Shown piece by piece: positions 4,884-32,402 of a stretch of DNA of 64,000 bases. Position numbers and translations under genes: made by a program. How positions within the stretch are numbered: the stretch's first letter is position 1; every line of letters starts with the position of its first letter. Under the pieces are notes generated by a model, which was given only the letters and a program-made list of their open reading frames with translations, searched no databases and was not told the origin of the DNA. Origin of the DNA: Rubricella aquisinus (GTDB lineage Bacteria; Pseudomonadota; Alphaproteobacteria; Rhodobacterales; Rhodobacteraceae); NCBI RefSeq assembly GCF_014199445.1, contig NZ_JACIJS010000004.1, positions 124,001-188,000 of the forward strand. The letters run 5' to 3'.

Positions 4884-6002
4884 ATGCAACCGTTCAACTT
4901 TGAAACGACACCCAAGATCGTGTGCGAAATCGGGGCCTCTGCGCAGATTGGCGCGCTGATGGCGGCGCGCGGTGTGCGGCATGTGGGCTTTGTCACGGAT
5001 GCCCCCGTGCGCGCGCTCGGTCTGACGGAGGAGGCGGAGCGGTCGATCCGGGCGGCGGGGCTGGCGTGCACGGTCGTGGACACGATCATCCCCGACCCGC
5101 CCGAGGCACTGGTTGAGGATGTGGCCAGCCAGCTTACCCAGTGTGACGGGATCGTCGCCTTGGGCGGGGGATCGGCCCTTGATGTGGCGAAGGTCGTGGC
5201 GCTTTTGAACGCGTCGGATCAACCGCTTGGCGCGATGTATGGCGTGGGCAACGCAACTGGCCCGCGCCTGCCGCTGATCCTTGTGCCGACCACGGCTGGA
5301 ACCGGATCGGAAGTGACGCCGATTTCCATTCTCACAACGGGGGAGGCGCAGAAGATGGGCATCGTCTCCCCGCTTTTGCTACCGGATGTGGCCTTGCTTG
5401 ACGCGCGGCTCACACTCGGATTGCCGCGCGATCATACGGCGGCGACGGGGGTGGATGCGATGGTCCACGCGATCGAGGCCTTCACCAGCCGTCACCGCAA
5501 AAACCCATTGTCGGACGCGCTGGCGCGGGAAGCCTTGACGCTCTTGTCCGCCAATATCGAACGGGTCTGCGACACACCACAGGATGAGGCCGCGCGGGGC
5601 GCGATGCTGCTGGGCTCCTGTTTCGCGGGCATGGCCTTTGCCAATGCGCCGGTTGCGGCGGTGCATGCGCTGGCCTATCCGCTGGGCGGCCATTTCAAGG
5701 TGCCCCACGGCCTGTCCAACTGCCTTGTCCTGCCGCATGTGCTGGAGTTCAACGCGCCCGCAGCGGAAGATGCCTATGCGGAACTGGCCAGCATCTGTTT
5801 TGACGGCGCAACGCTGGCCGATGGATTTCGCACCTTGGCCCCGCGCATTGGGCTGAAAACACGTCTCAGCGACGTCGGCGTCGGGCATAATCACCTGCCG
5901 ATGCTGGCCGAGGACGCGATGAAGCAGACCCGGCTTCTGATCAACAACCCGCGTGAGGTCACATATGAGGATGCGCTGGCAATATATACTAAGGCACTTT
6001 GA
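4884..6002 (+). CDS. Iron-containing (group III) alcohol dehydrogenase
   Basis: 372 residues, the normal length of the family. The N-terminal dinucleotide-binding domain has GGGSALDVAK (residues 94-103) and the PTTAGTGSEVT loop (135-145). The C-terminal helical domain holds the likely metal ligands Asp191, His195, His261 and His275, in TGVDAMVHAIEAF and the VAAVHALAYPLGGHFKVPHG region. Enzymes of this type oxidise primary alcohols or reduce aldehydes and ketoacids with NAD(P); the substrate cannot be told. It starts at ATG after GGGAGGATCACG and is followed by a large inverted repeat, so it is probably a single transcription unit. Confidence 0.93.
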   Translation: MQPFNFETTPKIVCEIGASAQIGALMAARGVRHVGFVTDAPVRALGLTEEAERSIRAAGLACTVVDTIIPDPPEALVEDVASQLTQCDGIVALGGGSALDVAKVVALLNASDQPLGAMYGVGNATGPRLPLILVPTTAGTGSEVTPISILTTGEAQKMGIVSPLLLPDVALLDARLTLGLPRDHTAATGVDAMVHAIEAFTSRHRKNPLSDALAREALTLLSANIERVCDTPQDEAARGAMLLGSCFAGMAFANAPVAAVHALAYPLGGHFKVPHGLSNCLVLPHVLEFNAPAAEDAYAELASICFDGATLADGFRTLAPRIGLKTRLSDVGVGHNHLPMLAEDAMKQTRLLINNPREVTYEDALAIYTKAL

Positions 6003-25310: not shown

Positions 25311-26618
25311 TTACCCCAGCTTCATGTTGTCGATGCCCACCAGCCGGTCATAAAGCCAGTAGAGGATGAGAACCCCGAACAGCAAGAGGGCCGCCAATGC
25401 CGCCGCGAGCGACCAATTGAGCGAGTTCTGCATGTGGAAGGCGATCAGGTTGGAGATCAACTGCCCGTCCGATCCACCTACAAGCGCGGGCGTGATGTAG
25501 TAGCCCACCGCAAGGATGAACACGAGCATTGAGCCTGCCGCAATCCCTGGAATGGTCTGCGGGAAATAAATCCGGCGGAAGGTCGTCCAGCTTGTCGCGC
25601 CAAGGGACCGTGCCGCGCGGGCATAGCTTGGCGGAATGGTCCGCATCACCGAATACATCGGCAGGATCATGAAGGGCAAAAGGATATGCGTCATCGCGAC
25701 AATCGTGCCGATCTGGTTATACATCATCTGGATGCGCCCATCGTCCCCGATGATGCCCATCGCGACCATCACGTCATTGACCACACCCTGACTTTGCAAC
25801 AGCACCATCCAACTGGTCGTCCGCACCAAGAGCGATGTCCAGAACGGCAACAGAACGAGGATCATCAGCAGGTTCGATGTTCGCATCGGCAGGATCGCCA
25901 AGAGATGCGCCACCGGAAAGCCAAGGAGGAAACACAGGCCCGTAATCAGCGCCGACAGCCAAAGGGTGCGGATAAAGAGGTTGATGTAGATTTGCCGGTT
26001 TTCATCCACTGACACGATATCCCCCTCCGGCGTGGTCGTCATATCGACCGCCGCGAGGTAAAAACTCAGCGTATAGGGATTGGAGGCGGTGCGCATTGCG
26101 CTCCATAATTCAGGCTCGGCCCAGTCCTCATCCACATCGAGCACGGCTTCCTTGAATGGGGCTTCCAGCCGGTCCGCGCGGCGCGCGGTCTTGGTGAAAA
26201 GGGAGCGGGAGCCGGAATGCTCATAATTGATCCGGGTGCCGACCTGACCGGGCGCGCGCAATTCGCGCAAGAGCCGCAAATCCATCACGAGCGCCTCATA
26301 GGCGGCTTCATCGGGTTCGGTTCCGCGCGGGTTGTCATCGAACCAGTCGCGCAGGTTCACCATGATCGGCGTTTTCACACCGTCTGAAATGCTGGTGTGC
26401 ATCGTAAAGCCGTCATTGTGGATCGACCGGAACAGCATCTGCCCAATGGGCACGACGAAGGTGATCAACACAAACAGCAATAGCGGGGCGACCAAAATCG
26501 CTGCGCGGGTGCGGGCGCGGCGCTGGGCGCGGGCAAGGGATGACTTGAGCGGCTGGCCATCGGCGGTGCGCAATTCACCAGCGTCGTTCTGATCCGTATC
26601 AGCGGTCATATCCACCAT
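25311..26618 (-). CDS. ABC transporter permease, polyamine type (PotB-like)
   Basis: 435 residues, longer than a typical PotB (about 280-310) because of a hydrophilic region of about 130 residues between the first and second membrane segments, probably a periplasmic insertion (it holds ELRAPGQVGTRINYEHSGSRS and DVDEDWAEPELW). The C-terminal six-helix core has the EAA loop ARAARSLGATSWTTFRRIYFPQTIPGI. ATG at 26618 follows GAGG; another ATG lies three codons in. The insertion is common in PotB-like proteins of proteobacteria that import less-known polyamines or amino-sugars, by inference. Confidence 0.85.
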   Translation of the reverse strand: MVDMTADTDQNDAGELRTADGQPLKSSLARAQRRARTRAAILVAPLLLFVLITFVVPIGQMLFRSIHNDGFTMHTSISDGVKTPIMVNLRDWFDDNPRGTEPDEAAYEALVMDLRLLRELRAPGQVGTRINYEHSGSRSLFTKTARRADRLEAPFKEAVLDVDEDWAEPELWSAMRTASNPYTLSFYLAAVDMTTTPEGDIVSVDENRQIYINLFIRTLWLSALITGLCFLLGFPVAHLLAILPMRTSNLLMILVLLPFWTSLLVRTTSWMVLLQSQGVVNDVMVAMGIIGDDGRIQMMYNQIGTIVAMTHILLPFMILPMYSVMRTIPPSYARAARSLGATSWTTFRRIYFPQTIPGIAAGSMLVFILAVGYYITPALVGGSDGQLISNLIAFHMQNSLNWSLAAALAALLLFGVLILYWLYDRLVGIDNMKLG

Positions 26619-26689
26619 GCCAAATCCTCGATCCTATCAAAAGGGGGGTGCCGGGCGCAGCACAGGGCCGCGCCCGGCGAAAGCCGTGC

Positions 26690-27772
26690 TTACTGAGCAA
26701 GCCAAGCGTTGAAACGCTCGTTCAACTCGGTGTCCCGGTCGGCCCAGAACTCGAAGTTGTTGACGAGGGCGTTCTCAAGGTTCGCAGCCGCGGTCGGCAT
26801 GTGCGGGCCCATCTGGGTCACGCCGTCGGAATAAAGACCGACAAGCTCACCAGAGGATTTCCGCGCCGGACCGTAGGAGATCCAGCTTGCCTGATCGGCA
26901 AGGCGCTGCGTGTCCGTCGCAAAGGCGATGAACTTCTTGGCTTCTTCCATGTTCGGTGCGCCCTGCGGGATCACGAACAGATCGAAATCCATGACCTGAC
27001 CGTCCCAGACGATTTCGAACGGCTGGCCTTCGCCAACGGCTGCGTTGAAGATACGGCCGTTATACGCGGTGGACATCACCACTTCGCCATCCGCGAGAAG
27101 CTGCGGCGGCTGTGCACCGGACTCCCACCACACAACGCTGTCCTTGATGGTGTCGAGCTTCGCGAAGGCGCGATCCACACCTTCATCCGTTTCCAGGAGG
27201 TCATAGACTTCGGATGCCGGAACGCCGTCTGCCATCAGAGCCATCTCAAGGTTGGCTTTCGCGTTCTTGCGCAGACCACGGTTGCCCGGGAAATCCGCAA
27301 GGTTGAAGAAATCGTCGATGCTGTCGGGCGCGTTCGCGTTGGTCTCGGTGTTATACGCGAAAACGGTGGACCAAACGATGTTGGCCACGGCGCAATCCTG
27401 AAGCGCGCCTTCGATGAAGTCATCGGCGGCAGGCGTGCCGTCGGGGGCTGCGGGCAGCATGGAATGATCCAGCTCGACAAGCAGACCTTCGTCGCACAGG
27501 CGGATCGCATCGGAGAACTCGACGTCTGCGACATCAACGGTCACGTTGCCGGCCTCAACCTGCGCCTTGATCGGGGTTGCCGGGTTGCTGGCATCCACGG
27601 AATTAACGGAAATGCCGGTCATCGCGGTGAACGGCTTGTGATAGGCCTCAACCTGGGACTTGGTGTATGCACCGCCCCAAGACATCACGGTCACTTCCTG
27701 AGCGGAAGCGACGCTTGCAGCCATCAGGCCGGTGACCATCGCGGTCGTGGCAAGATAAAACTTGGTTTTCAT
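26690..27772 (-). CDS. ABC transporter substrate-binding protein, polyamine type
   Basis: 360 residues from the ATG at 27772 (ribosome site AGGAGAG; an upstream in-frame extension is rejected). Signal peptide MKTKFYLATTAMVTGLMAASVASA, then EVTVMSWGGAYTKSQVEAYHKPF, the opening strand of PotD/PotF-like cluster D binding proteins. Aromatic residues expected to line a polyamine pocket (Trp in MSWGG, VVWWESG, Tyr in STAYNGR) are present. It delivers substrate in the periplasm to the two permeases. The exact ligand (putrescine, spermidine or other) cannot be read. Confidence 0.88.
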   Translation of the reverse strand: MKTKFYLATTAMVTGLMAASVASAQEVTVMSWGGAYTKSQVEAYHKPFTAMTGISVNSVDASNPATPIKAQVEAGNVTVDVADVEFSDAIRLCDEGLLVELDHSMLPAAPDGTPAADDFIEGALQDCAVANIVWSTVFAYNTETNANAPDSIDDFFNLADFPGNRGLRKNAKANLEMALMADGVPASEVYDLLETDEGVDRAFAKLDTIKDSVVWWESGAQPPQLLADGEVVMSTAYNGRIFNAAVGEGQPFEIVWDGQVMDFDLFVIPQGAPNMEEAKKFIAFATDTQRLADQASWISYGPARKSSGELVGLYSDGVTQMGPHMPTAAANLENALVNNFEFWADRDTELNERFNAWLAQ

Positions 27773-27850
27773 TTGGTCTCTCCTGGTTGGTCTTGGTCCG
27801 TCTTTATGTGCCCCCGCACGCGGGACCTCATGCGCGCGGGGTATCACTGC

Positions 27851-28942
27851 TCACGCGTCGAGCGCGCGGCAATCTCGTGTCGCCCAGCCGATGGTCAGCT
27901 TTTGACCTTCTTCAAGCGGGCCTTGGCCGCCTGCATTGGGCACTTTGACGATAAACTCGTCATTCCCATGCACGCGCATCCGGCACCGAATATGGTCGCC
28001 GTGGTAAATCAACTCCAGAACCTCCGCGGCGACCGCGTTGGCCCCGTTGGTTGGGTTCAATGTCACACGCTCTGGCCGGATAGACAGAAGCGTGCGGGTT
28101 CCGACGCCGGTATTGGCCACGGCAAGTGCCGTTCCCGTTTCCCCGTCGTCAAACTTCACATGCACCGTGTCGCCGTCGATCGCGGTCACTTCGGCCATGA
28201 GTTTGTTATTCTCACCGATGAACTGGGCAACAAAAGCGTTCTCCGGCTCTTCATAGAGCGCCTGCGGGGTCGCAAGCTGCTGGATGCGGCCATCATCGAA
28301 CACCGCGACCCGGTCTGACATGGTCAGCGCCTCGGACTGGTCGTGGGTCACATAGACGACCGTGATCCCGAGCCGCTCATGCAGGTGCTTGATCTCATAC
28401 TGCATATGCTCGCGCAGTTGTTTGTCGAGCGCGCCCAGCGGCTCGTCCATCAAAACCAGCTCCGGCTCGAACACCAGCGCGCGGGCCAGCGCGATCCGCT
28501 GCTGCTGACCACCGGACAGTTGCGCGGGGCGGCGCCCGCCGAACTCCCCCATCTGCACCATATCAAGCGCGCGCGCGACGGCGGCGTCACGCTCCGTCTT
28601 TCCCATGCCGCGCACTTCCAAAGGGAAGGCGAGGTTTTCGGCCACGCTCATATGCGGGAACAGCGCGTAATTCTGGAACACCATACCAATGCCGCGCTTA
28701 TGCGGGGGGATGTTGTTGATCGGGCGCCCGTCCAGCGTAATCTCCCCATGGGTCGCGGTCTCAAATCCCGCGAGCATCATCAGGCAGGTCGTCTTGCCCG
28801 ATCCCGACGGGCCAAGCATCGTGAGAAACTCGCCTTTGCCGATATGGAGGTTGAGATCTTTAACGACGAGCGTTTCGCCGTCATAGCTTTTTTGCACACG
28901 ATCAAAACTGACGAATGCCTCGTCCTGCGGCGTCACTGTCAC
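27851..28942 (-). CDS. ABC transporter ATP-binding protein (PotA-like)
   Basis: 363 residues if GTG at 28942 is used, chosen because GGAG lies 5 nt upstream; nearby GTG codons at 28948 and 28936 are alternatives, and a longer reading from upstream is unlikely. Walker A is GPSGSGKTT, the signature is LSGGQQQ, Walker B is LVLMDEPLGALD, followed by the switch His in YVTHDQ. The C-terminal 110 residues form the TOBE regulatory domain. It is the first gene of the polyamine-type importer operon; its promoter must lie in the 29.0-29.5 kb gap. Confidence 0.92.
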   Translation of the reverse strand: MTVTPQDEAFVSFDRVQKSYDGETLVVKDLNLHIGKGEFLTMLGPSGSGKTTCLMMLAGFETATHGEITLDGRPINNIPPHKRGIGMVFQNYALFPHMSVAENLAFPLEVRGMGKTERDAAVARALDMVQMGEFGGRRPAQLSGGQQQRIALARALVFEPELVLMDEPLGALDKQLREHMQYEIKHLHERLGITVVYVTHDQSEALTMSDRVAVFDDGRIQQLATPQALYEEPENAFVAQFIGENNKLMAEVTAIDGDTVHVKFDDGETGTALAVANTGVGTRTLLSIRPERVTLNPTNGANAVAAEVLELIYHGDHIRCRMRVHGNDEFIVKVPNAGGQGPLEEGQKLTIGWATRDCRALDA

Positions 28943-29256
28943 ACGCACTCTCCAGATTTCCCTGTTTTGCCTGCAAATGTGTCTTCGCATGGCGTCCTGA
29001 TCCGAAACGTAACAGTAGAATTTCCACAAGTGCAAGAATGGACGCGCGTCCCGGCGCATAAGACTGATTTTTCCCATTCTGCGGTCGGTTTTGAGCCAAA
29101 ATTGGGCGTTTTGGTCCAAATGACTGGCCAGGTGGCCTGTCGCGCAGAGCGACATCGCGCAAATGCAGCCGGGCAGGGGGCGGGTTTGCGGCCTATGGTT
29201 CCATTTTGAGCAATGCGATTCCACGATGCGGCCCAAATCCGTCAAGAGTTGGATCA

Positions 29257-29348
29257 CTCAAATTTCGTTGAGACAAAAGTCGGTATTTTTTTCGTCACAG
29301 CGCCGTGATGAACTGAACGGTTCATTATGAATTGAAATCCTATTTCAA
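29257..29348. promoter_or_regulatory. Cluster of three palindromes in a divergent intergenic region
   Basis: Between the ABC operon start (28942) and the first microprotein gene (29542) about 600 bp hold no supported gene. Within it are CTCAA-N6-TTGAG (29257-29272), TGAAC-G-GTTCA (29314-29324) and TTGAAAT-CCT-ATTTCAA (29332-29348). The second resembles the TGAAC sites at 2.9 kb. They may be operators for either or both divergent units. The rest of the gap is A/T-richer than the coding sequence and probably contains both promoters and a long 5' leader. Confidence 0.5.
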
Positions 29349-29541
29349 CCCTCGTGACGCCACGTCATTTTCACGAAAACGCGCGATTTTCTCACGCAAG
29401 GCGGCGCGTAAGCGTTTGTTTCTGTTTGCGAAAAAATGCGTCTGAAAAACTGGGGTACACGAATGCGGATGGCCTCCACATCTGTCCATCATCGCAACGA
29501 GGCGACGAACAAAACGCCTCACCAAACAAAGGAGACTACAC

Positions 29542-29736
29542 ATGACCAACGCACTGAAAACCATCCTCGCCGCATCCGTCCTGACCGTCGCAGCCGGTGG
29601 CGCATTCGCCAACACCGCGCAGCTTGCAGCCTCCGCTGGCCTGACGCCCGCCGAAGCACAGGGCCTGAGCGTTCAGGAAATCGCAGGCTACAAAGCGTTC
29701 CTCGAGAACGACGAATGGTCCCGCGTGACCAACTGA
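29542..29736 (+). CDS. Secreted microprotein, tandem copy 1
   Basis: 64 residues, MTNALKTILAAS... with ribosome site AAAGGAG 9 nt before the ATG. The first 23 residues form a signal peptide ending GGAFA; the mature part is 41 residues, starting NTAQLAASAG and ending LENDEWSRVTN. It is mildly acidic, has no Cys, and contains a Thr-Pro-Ala-Glu (LTPAEAQ) helix-cap-like start and an EIAGYKAFLEN helix. I recognise no named family. This copy differs from the other two only at the extreme N-terminus (Asn-Ala instead of Lys-Thr). Confidence 0.85.
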   Translation: MTNALKTILAASVLTVAAGGAFANTAQLAASAGLTPAEAQGLSVQEIAGYKAFLENDEWSRVTN

Positions 29737-29773
29737 TCCCCTTCCCCAGACTGAAACCGACCTTAGAAGGAAT

Positions 29774-29974
29774 ATGAAAATGACCAAGACACTGAAAACC
29801 ATCCTCGCAGCATCCGTCCTGACCGTCGCAGCCGGTGGCGCATTCGCCAACACCGCGCAGCTTGCAGCCTCCGCTGGCCTGACGCCCGCCGAAGCACAGG
29901 GCCTGAGCGTGCAGGAAATCGCAGGCTACAAAGCGTTCCTCGAGAACGACGAATGGTCCCGCGTGACCAACTGA
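29774..29974 (+). CDS. Secreted microprotein, tandem copy 2
   Basis: 66 residues if the first ATG (29774) is used; the second ATG at 29780 aligns with copy 1 and has better spacing to AGAAGGA, giving 64 residues. From the signal peptide core to the stop, the protein is identical to copies 1 and 3; the few base differences there are synonymous. Identity of the mature peptide despite silent changes suggests selection or gene conversion. Probably cotranscribed with the flanking copies. Confidence 0.85.
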   Translation: MKMTKTLKTILAASVLTVAAGGAFANTAQLAASAGLTPAEAQGLSVQEIAGYKAFLENDEWSRVTN

Positions 29975-30011
29975 TCCCCTTCCCCAGACTGAAACCGACC
30001 TTAGAAGGAAT

Positions 30012-30212
30012 ATGAAAATGACCAAGACACTGAAAACCATCCTCGCCGCATCCGTCCTGACCGTCGCAGCCGGTGGCGCATTCGCCAACACCGCGCAGCT
30101 TGCAGCCTCCGCTGGCCTGACGCCCGCTGAAGCACAGGGCCTGAGCGTTCAGGAAATCGCAGGCTACAAAGCGTTCCTTGAGAACGACGAATGGTCCCGC
30201 GTGACCAACTGA
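30012..30212 (+). CDS. Secreted microprotein, tandem copy 3
   Basis: Same protein as copy 2 (66 residues, or 64 from the ATG at 30018). Four synonymous base changes distinguish it from copy 2 in the coding part. The unit ends at the stop codon; instead of the usual spacer a strong terminator hairpin follows at once, so this is the last copy of the array. Confidence 0.85.
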   Translation: MKMTKTLKTILAASVLTVAAGGAFANTAQLAASAGLTPAEAQGLSVQEIAGYKAFLENDEWSRVTN

Positions 30213-30225
30213 TGACGACCGGGAT

Positions 30226-30270
30226 AGGTGCCGATGTCATCCCACACATCGGCACCTCACCCCTTTTTTT
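30226..30270 (+). terminator. Rho-independent terminator after the microprotein array
   Basis: A perfect 12-bp stem AGGTGCCGATGT (30226-30237) / ACATCGGCACCT (30246-30257) with an 8-nt loop, then CACCCC and seven T residues (30264-30270). The six nt between stem and T run are unusual, so read-through into the next small ORF is possible. Confidence 0.8.
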
Positions 30271-30285
30271 CCAAAGGATAGACGG

Positions 30286-30453
30286 ATGAAACCGCTTCTC
30301 TACATCGCTGCTTTTCTGGCGCTGGCCAGCCCGGCAGTGGCGTCTGATACTGTATATGCCGCAATGACCTTCGCCCCGGATGTGAGCATCCACGGGCTGA
30401 GTGATTTCGTGGTTCGGGCCATGGCAATCGGGCCTTACGGGCCGAATTATTAA
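30286..30453 (+). CDS. Small secreted peptide (55 residues)
   Basis: ATG at 30286 with AAAGGA upstream. The protein starts MKPLLYIAAFLALASPAVAS, a clear signal peptide with a predicted cut after AVA; the 36-residue mature peptide contains TFAPDVSIHGLSDFVVRAM and ends AIGPYGPNY. It has no Cys and no domain I recognise. It lies just after the microprotein terminator and its stop codon overlaps the stop of the convergent amylosucrase gene. A signal peptide over an otherwise short frame with a good ribosome site supports a real gene. Confidence 0.6.
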   Translation: MKPLLYIAAFLALASPAVASDTVYAAMTFAPDVSIHGLSDFVVRAMAIGPYGPNY

Positions 30454-32402
30454 ACCAGCCACATGGCCTGATAGGGGGCCAAGGTGACGGCGCCCTGAAT
30501 GGCGCGACCTGACAGACGATCTTCAAAATCCACGACGCCATGCGCGCTCAACCATCCCCGGTCGAGCGCGATATGCTGTTCGGAGAAGTTGAATACGGCG
30601 ACCAGCGTTCGGGCAGCCGCCACGCGCCGGAATGCAAATACCGATGCGTGCGGGACGTCCAGAATGTCACGCGGCACATCGCCATGCAGTTCCGGCGTCG
30701 CCTTCCTCGCCGCAAGCAGCGCCTTGACCCCTGCATAAACCCGCCCTGTCGGGGTGGCAGGATCATGGCGCTCTGCGGCGCGGTCCCAATCCATCAATGG
30801 GCGGTGCATCCAGCGGCTGTCATCCTCGCCCCGGCTATGCGCGGCCCAGTCATGGTCGTTCAGCAGGGCAAGCTCGTCCCCCATATAGAGCAACGGCACC
30901 CCGCCAAAGCTCGCGATCAGGGCATGGCCCATCAGGATGCGCGCAATCGCATCCCCGACCCACGCGTCATTGCCCGCTTCAAGGGCTGTTTCCAGCCCGC
31001 ACAGCGATGCCATGGTGCCATTGGTGCGCCGGTCCTGCGTGACCGGGTTATACTGAAACCGCCCGCCCCGTGCGAAACTGCCCGGAAACACGCCCTCATA
31101 GAAATCTGCCAGAAACTGCCGGTGGCCAAAGCCCGAAAAGCCAAGCTGGCCCGCATCCTCATCCGTGATCGCCCAGCCGATATCGTCATGGCAGCGCAGA
31201 TACGTGCCCCATGTCGCGTTGCGATGCACGGTCGGGAAATGGGTGCGCAGGACATGGGTCATCAGCCCGGTGTCGCGCGCGGCCAAGGCTGACCAGAACT
31301 GCACCATCAGGGAGTTGTGATAGGCCAGATTGGCAACCTTGCCCGTATGCTCCCCAACCCCGAGATAGGGGAGAAGCTGATCAGGCGCCACAATCGCCTC
31401 TGCCTTATGGATCACGGCGGGCGCGGCAATCCGGCAGGCCGCGCGCAGCGCCTGAAGGATATGGTGCACTTCAGGCAGGTTCTGACACTGGGTGCCCAGC
31501 CGTTTCCACATGAAGGCCACGGCATCCAGCCGCAGCACCTCCGCGCCCTTGTTTGCGAGATAGAGCATCACGTCGAGGATCTCGATAAAGATTTGGGGGT
31601 TCTCCCAATTCAGATCCCACTGATGCTCATTGAATGTGGTCCAGACCCAGCGGTCCATATCCGCGTAATAGGTGAAATTACCGGGCGCCTGATTGGGGAA
31701 AATCTCCAGCAGGGTTTTCTCATATTCGCGGGGCGTCTCATCCGTTTCATACATGCGGTAATAGGCCCGGTGCTGTTCGGACCCGGCGCGGGCGCGCATG
31801 GCCCAATCATGCTCTTTCGCGGTGTGATTGAGCACCATGTCGATACAGGGCGAAATACCGCGCGCGCGAAACGCGGCGCAGATCGCCTCAAACTCCGCCA
31901 TAGTGCCAAGACGGGGATCAATTTCCCGGTAATTCTGCACCGAATAGCCGCCATCATTGTCGCCGTCGCGCGGCTTGAGGCAGGGCATCAGGTGCACATA
32001 GGTGACGCCCAACTCCTCCAGATAATCGAGCTTGGCGGGCAGATCGGCCAGCGTTCCGGCAAAGCGGTCGATATAGAACACATAGCCGACCATGGTTTCG
32101 CGCAGGAACCAGTCCGGCTCCAGATCGCGGCGCAGATCGAGGTCTTTGAGGTCTTTCGGGCGTTCGCGCCAATTGCGGCGCAGCATCTGCACAAGCTGGC
32201 TGGCGAAGCGCTCATAGCCCGGCAAATGACCGTAAAGGTGATCGAGCGGGCCAAACAGATCGGCGCGGGAGCGGTCAAAGCGCAACTCGAAAATGCGCTG
32301 CTCGCCGGGGGTGAGCCGGGTTGGTGTGCGCTTGGGCAAGGGGCGGGCCGCCGCGCGCGACGGGGTGGGTTCGGTCGTGGTGACGGCCTTTGATCGCGCC
32401 AT
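30450..32402 (-). CDS. Amylosucrase (GH13 alpha-glucosyltransferase)
   Basis: 650 residues from the ATG at 32402 (a longer frame inside pgm is rejected). The GH13 core is complete: GYSVQNYREIDPRLG (about 152-166), IDMVLNHTAKEHD, nucleophile Asp293 in LRLDAVAF, general acid Glu335 in KAEAIV, and RCHDDIGW. The N-terminal helical domain and overall length match amylosucrases (GH13_4), which polymerise glucose from sucrose into alpha-1,4-glucan, with fructose released. It starts 4 bp after pgm, so the two are cotranscribed. A sucrose hydrolase activity is the alternative. Confidence 0.88.
   Translation of the reverse strand: MARSKAVTTTEPTPSRAAARPLPKRTPTRLTPGEQRIFELRFDRSRADLFGPLDHLYGHLPGYERFASQLVQMLRRNWRERPKDLKDLDLRRDLEPDWFLRETMVGYVFYIDRFAGTLADLPAKLDYLEELGVTYVHLMPCLKPRDGDNDGGYSVQNYREIDPRLGTMAEFEAICAAFRARGISPCIDMVLNHTAKEHDWAMRARAGSEQHRAYYRMYETDETPREYEKTLLEIFPNQAPGNFTYYADMDRWVWTTFNEHQWDLNWENPQIFIEILDVMLYLANKGAEVLRLDAVAFMWKRLGTQCQNLPEVHHILQALRAACRIAAPAVIHKAEAIVAPDQLLPYLGVGEHTGKVANLAYHNSLMVQFWSALAARDTGLMTHVLRTHFPTVHRNATWGTYLRCHDDIGWAITDEDAGQLGFSGFGHRQFLADFYEGVFPGSFARGGRFQYNPVTQDRRTNGTMASLCGLETALEAGNDAWVGDAIARILMGHALIASFGGVPLLYMGDELALLNDHDWAAHSRGEDDSRWMHRPLMDWDRAAERHDPATPTGRVYAGVKALLAARKATPELHGDVPRDILDVPHASVFAFRRVAAARTLVAVFNFSEQHIALDRGWLSAHGVVDFEDRLSGRAIQGAVTLAPYQAMWLV

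Follow-up and report, generated by a model that had tools for sequence, protein, structure and literature searches.

The 64,000-nucleotide stretch of Rubricella aquisinus DNA analyzed here (the window) carries three head-to-tail genes on the forward strand (29542-29736, 29780-29974, and 30018-30212) that are held in 238-bp direct repeats and code for one and the same exported peptide. The interpretation that we favor, with moderate confidence, is that they form a single three-cistron transcription unit for a dosage-amplified, Sec-exported, acidic envelope microprotein belonging to a modular secreted family. Each copy encodes a 64-residue precursor with a mature 41-residue peptide (NTAQ...RVTN) that is identical in all three, and TRF reports the array as 29542-30213 with a period of 238, 2.8 copies, and 98% matches. 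Any two copies are 4 nucleotides (nt) apart inside the common 195-nt frame. Codons 5 to 64 include four variable codons (10, 37, 44, and 54), all silent and with no replacement (naive P of 0.005), and the two replacement differences are confined to codons 3 and 4, at the duplication junction; both spacers, including the ribosome site, are identical between copies. Because copies 2 and 3 each have private differences, a simple assembly duplicate does not account for the array. The repeat scan and copy comparison bear out the sequence-only reading, which had described three tandem genes with an identical mature peptide in 238-bp repeats, DNA differences that are almost all silent, and a spacer and ribosome site duplicated along with the gene. 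No further clear copy was found in the rest of this genome with E values up to 10, and one distant Cys-containing relative-like gene there has a score of 0.2.

A signal peptide precedes the unit (MTKTLKTILAASVLTVAAGGAFA^N) and appears to be Sec-type from its n/h/c pattern and AxA motif, judged by eye; with cleavage placed by the AxA rule, the signal peptide of copy 1 spans 29542-29610 and the mature 41 residues span 29611-29733. Copy 1 has a ribosome-binding site, AAGGAG, at 29529-29534. The spacer at 29737-29779 is without strong structure (z of -0.60) and supplies the site AGAAGGA at 29765-29771. Copies 2 and 3 have alternative starts at 29774 and 30012, each giving a 66-residue product, and these first ATGs are only 2 nt behind AGAAGGA, whereas the second ATGs (29780 and 30018) are 8 nt behind it. 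From this spacing, translation of copies 2 and 3 probably begins at the second ATG, giving 64 residues for all three products.

AlphaFold places helices in the mature peptide at residues 2 to 8, 13 to 16, and 21 to 40, with a pTM of 0.47 from an alignment of the window sequence and that of one homologue (L006) only, and with block pLDDT values of 83 to 86 over residues 1 to 30, then 62 and 48. Matches of this model in Foldseek are at chance level, and VIA-align finds none at a Z of 2 or more. By count the peptide has a net charge of -3. Among the mature parts of its relatives, whose ends were set by a crude rule for these counts, the median charge is -7, two of 70 are positive, and one of 70 contains Cys.

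By its sequence, the window peptide is a one-unit member of a scattered, apparently unnamed modular secreted family. The family is defined by a helical unit of approximately 32 residues, QLAxSLGVxPxxYTxxELxxLKxA, with a signal peptide ahead of the first unit. Searched alone against 394 genomes of the same taxonomic family, the window protein gives seven matches at an E value of ≤0.01, the strongest being in genome G210 (2.4e-6); on reading, four are true members (G000, G210, G073, and G299), and those in G092, G151, and G283 are chance frames or match the signal peptide alone. The same query finds nothing among plasmids, and a genome contig scan with it returns the two-unit protein L006 in a Rhodobacteraceae MAG (E of 3e-8). 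A tally of 57/394 with a first unit profile (A1) was discarded, as approximately 18 of the 30 loci returned were chance frames of unrelated genes. Profile A2 has 16 rows and 32 positions and matches each window copy at an E value of 3.9e-13, the window sequence itself being one of the rows. It matches 29 of 198 sampled genera and genomes of the taxonomic family at ≤0.01, four of which (G000, G056, G073, and G129) had supplied rows; 26 remain after reading, with no parsed member in G049, G080, and G152. The other 169 genomes are without a match, and the protein family is therefore dispensable. In a sample of the order, for which the number of other families contained is not shown, 46/390 genomes match at ≤0.001, every one in the same taxonomic family, and in a sample of the class the sole match among 240 genomes is the window's own. 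Named plasmid matches are all in the Rhodobacterales, and among the sampled genomes the unit family is restricted to one taxonomic family.

The sequence-only reading had recognized no family for this peptide, and this stands for the curated resources: neither Pfam nor NCBIfam has a match to the window proteins above its curated cutoff, and the unit profile has only chance-level matches in the PDB, none credible. It does not stand for genomes, where the scattered family is found. The homologues scanned likewise match no Pfam or NCBIfam family above the cutoff, with the single exception of BBE on the Dinoroseobacter shibae protein (23 versus 20.6 bits over 19 residues, with no stretch passing alone), which was taken as chance. 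No relatives were found in viral, phage, or PDB searches, and a phage origin of the array was set aside on the empty viral and phage results. The matches are annotated as hypothetical proteins, the named ones being on plasmids of Thioclava, D. shibae, Palleronia, and Roseinatronobacter; in the portions of the literature available no publication was found that names the family, and exoproteome papers may hold such proteins as unnamed hits.

Seventy-three distinct proteins were parsed from 55 genomes or records, with starts set by rule rather than by annotation, and by detected units 29 have one, 21 have two, and 23 have three, so that 44 carry two or three in a single gene. The D. shibae (WP_249994595.1), Palleronia (WP_317377306.1), and Thioclava (WP_330629424.1) proteins are, like the window protein, products of stand-alone genes with a signal peptide followed by QLAxSLGV..YTxxELxxLK units, but they have three, three, and two units, respectively, joined by linkers, whereas the window's three genes each encode a single short unit. 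A V/ISTQ linker motif is present in 16 of the 73 proteins, the window's not among them. Spy/CpxP LTxxQ proteins are small, helical, exported periplasmic proteins with an L-[ST]-x-x-[EQ] helix start, and the window peptide resembles them in size class, helicity, export, and helix start but is shorter; the Pfam LTxxQ model matches neither the window proteins nor the homologues scanned. The extended units of some multiunit members read as helix-turn-helix (A..xDD..V.FIL.GG) and resemble ankyrin-like helical repeats, a resemblance only; the unit proteins differ in being secreted and without a Pfam ankyrin match, and the window peptide has no structure match. Separately, the small exported proteins encoded at four loci (L026, L037, L040, and L074) have a charged tail and stretches resembling LTxxQIAxIK, and from these motifs they may be distantly related to the unit family.

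The closest parallel to the window array is in G210, a genome of another genus, with seven near-identical single-unit genes for proteins of 69 to 70 residues that are 41 to 48% identical to the window protein over residues 1 to 58. Four are in tandem at 282 bp, two are in tandem, and one is alone; the arrangement is thus like the window's in its single units and near-identical tandem copies and unlike it in its period and copy number. Over codons 27 to 70 (after the first mature residue) the seven copies have 11 silent and no replacement variable codons (pS of 0.16 and pN of 0); with mutation bias and shared descent left aside, a naive estimate puts the chance of 11 silent changes out of 11 at about 1.6e-7. 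Outside residues 27 to 70 there are the replacements V4F and N26T and a one-codon loss at 26, and spacer comparison within the four tandem genes shows 3, 3, and 0 differences over 69 nt. A tandem pair in G045 has five silent and six replacement codons, and with replacement changes this common, constraint is not equally strong everywhere; the codon comparison of gene copies leaves out three copies in G034. Neighboring family genes on the same strand are present in at least eight of the 55 genomes or records, a lower bound given that the flanks are mostly 1.5 kb, and in the six pairs other than those of the window and G210, protein identities are 33 to 96% and gaps are 99 to 848 nt. Comparison with related genomes for copy number and conservation, the check proposed in the sequence-only reading, finds family members, a seven-copy relative, and recurrent neighboring copies. 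Silent-only change is evidence of constraint on the peptide but does not show any advantage of three copies over one; the array's own spacers are unchanged too, such that its noncoding DNA has no visibly faster drift, and copies can also stay similar through recent duplication and gene conversion.

Codon usage of the array suggests genes built for high output, and an abundant product is predicted. With codon adaptation index (CAI) weights taken from 23 ribosomal protein genes of the same genome, chosen by recognized N termini, copies 1, 2, and 3 score 0.858, 0.830, and 0.806, and the array is above all 23 ribosomal genes (0.63 to 0.80). Among the 45 window genes the median is 0.63 and the highest value is 0.812, none reaching the array mean, which is attained by 1.4% of 1,350 64-codon segments; copy 3 falls below one window gene, that for the adjacent potD-like solute-binding protein (26693-27772, reverse strand), which has the highest value. 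The silent-only changes (here and, with greater force, in G210), the codon bias, and the neighboring genes in relatives together support the earlier proposal of a recent amplification that raises dosage, and the array is probably a recently amplified, constrained gene whose three copies increase output.

Sequences flanking the array are consistent with one transcription unit. The element CATCTGTCCATCATCG (29479-29494, forward strand), a candidate promoter or leader element, is common to G210 and nearly so to G013; the 16-nt form shared by the window array and G210 is CATCTGTCyATCATCG, and the pattern CATCTGTYYATYATCG has a single exact match in the genome, which is this element. Immediately downstream is a leader stem-loop, GAGGCG-10 nt-CGCCTC (29499-29520, forward strand), in a segment that folds well (z of -3.37 for 29485-29541) and has no Rfam match. 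A probable intrinsic terminator at 30221-30270 (forward strand) has a 12-bp stem with an outer GGG/CCC followed by the U-run CUUUUUUU (-27.1 kcal/mol and z of -5.46). A simple consensus scan of 29200-30600 lists neither a sigma-70-type promoter nor this terminator. Transcription would begin just before the leader hairpin, pass through three cistrons, each with a ribosome site of its own, and stop at the terminator, and the hairpin may protect the mRNA. Right after the terminator is a 55-residue exported-looking open reading frame (30286-30453, forward strand) that cannot be clearly assigned to the unit family; its sole other match in the 198 genomes is weak (E of 0.008 in G070), in a frame following what is presumably flgG, and it may be a truncated FlgA-like remnant.

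Leader hairpins are enriched upstream of the family. Twelve of the 73 members were left out of the upstream counts (near-identical copies or doubtful starts), and the upstream regions of the remaining 61 are on average more stably folded than shuffles (mean z of -1.42, with 38 below -1). A TCAY motif plus a hairpin is present in 28 of the 61, compared with 15 of 176 other genes taken from the same loci, 12 of 61 windows farther upstream, and a mean of 7.0 (standard deviation of 2.4 and maximum of 14) in 40 shuffled sets, the rule being post hoc and designed on the same sequences in which it was counted. Adding a -10-like element gives 14/61 family genes versus 2/176 others. The other 33 upstream regions fail the hairpin rule, including those of G210 despite the common 16-nt element, and we claim no covariation for the stems, which MAFFT could not align.

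Two palindromes near family genes are also of note. A candidate repressor operator, GAACTGAACGGTTCATTAT, is at 29310-29328 (no strand assigned), and sites of this type (GAACyGAACsGTTyrGTTC) precede the array, a distant Cys-type gene on C1 of this genome, and a family gene in G093; it is a lead only, because the own-genome count at up to three mismatches (6+5) is not clearly above that of a reversed-pattern control (2+4). The C1 locus (L004/L095, about 546100-546350) codes for a small secreted protein, distant and Cys-containing (CTQLEMSVQVTGAECGTLSLAELAARK...); two GAACyGAACsGTT-like palindromes precede the gene and a TetR-type regulator gene follows it, and a similar Cys-type protein is encoded in G169 (L024). 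A TGTGCA-N4-TGCACA-like palindrome recurs upstream of multiunit genes, as found by eye (among them L083, at about 5826-5845, L023, L055, L056, and L057), with none seen at the window array, and from its recurrence is possibly a shared regulator site of multiunit genes.

The amplification could also be neutral, with slipped or unequal recombination copying a constrained gene, recency and gene conversion keeping the copies alike, and copy number having no selected function. The identical spacers and few differences between the window copies fit such an origin, as do the six neighboring pairs, whose varied divergence is that expected of a duplication-prone family without selection for dosage; however, independent near-identical single-unit arrays are present in two genera, no G210 copy has decayed, and the array has a codon bias above that of ribosomal genes, and we consider neutrality somewhat unlikely. 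The sequence-only reading had offered signal and envelope roles for the peptide, both of which are possible. A secreted pheromone-like peptide, amplified for output and sensed by some receptor, would be small, exported, and conserved in its mature sequence, as is seen, but the helical 41-residue unit recurs two or three times within larger secreted proteins, and no constant neighbor, and hence no constant partner gene, was found among the seven annotated plasmid regions, which makes a signal improbable. These regions comprise a copper island, RND efflux with TetR, methanol dehydrogenase/katG, LysR/beta-lactamase, exopolysaccharide, htpX, and a truncated copy with Imm52. The last is on Thioclava plasmid p5 (L142, 929-1189), where the truncated family gene has the unit SAGKAQLAAQLGVNPTEYTLAELV... 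and a frame interrupted upstream, and the Imm52 gene is ~2.2 kb away.

That Imm52 family immunity gene is one caveat to our disfavoring the suggestion that the peptide is bacteriocin-like, that is, a bacteriocin or other antagonistic microprotein, a role that a small exported peptide in several copies would suit. Glycine-zipper contact-dependent bacteriocins of the CdzC/D type have a GxxxG zipper motif in the secreted peptide; by raw count, 48 of the 73 family proteins have GxxxG at some point from the first unit onward, but the window peptide lacks it. Double-glycine (C39) bacteriocins have a conserved GG after an amphipathic leader, but the window leader is hydrophobic and GG is found in the leader of just 8 of the 73 proteins, the window's two forms included. 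The window peptide is acidic and 68 of the 70 mature parts are not positive, and the other six plasmid regions have no immunity or exporter annotation except an RND pump (Palleronia) and a copper RND gene (D. shibae island), all of which leaves a bacteriocin very unlikely. Less credible still is an accessory part of the adjacent polyamine-type ABC transporter, whose potB-like permease, potD-like binding protein, and ABC ATPase genes occupy 25311-29257 on the reverse strand. The codon bias of the binding protein gene is the highest of the 45 window genes, and both products may be abundant periplasmic proteins, but the array is on the opposite strand with a separate leader and terminator, and none of the seven annotated plasmid homologues is inside such a cluster. 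Three of the seven regions have single transporter-type genes 3 to 6 kb from the homologue (for an ABC solute-binding protein at 3.3 kb, a substrate-binding-domain protein at 5.8 kb, and an ABC ATPase at 5.4 kb, one region each), and the earlier proposal of a transporter cofactor is left unsupported.

We thus return to a dosage-amplified envelope microprotein. The array would make three doses of one Sec-exported peptide, the signal peptide probably being removed after AFA, and a 41-residue acidic helical mini-domain would accumulate beyond the cytoplasm, with the periplasm or the cell surface as its probable location. Given a small, acidic unit that recurs in longer proteins and has no constant neighbor in the regions read, the simplest interpretation is a nonenzymatic envelope module; we infer that it acts as a noncatalytic binding or protective module rather than as a toxin or transporter part, which is the weakest step of the explanation. 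Gene copies in tandem here and unit copies inside one gene elsewhere would be two routes to many units per cell. More tentatively, and on balance doubtfully, the modular secreted class as a whole could form an abundant scaffold, in the envelope or outside the cell, in which recombination adjusts the number of units by either of two interchangeable means, adding units within a gene or adding single-unit genes in tandem, with many of the genes sharing a high-output promoter and 5′-hairpin leader. What emerges is a family of exported proteins, apparently unnamed and open to testing, within one alphaproteobacterial family, and the single-unit form is its minimal version, 41 residues whose structure and function could be solved quickly. 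It also provides a clean case of one protein unit multiplied within genes or as tandem genes, with a product that is strongly constrained in both single-unit arrays.
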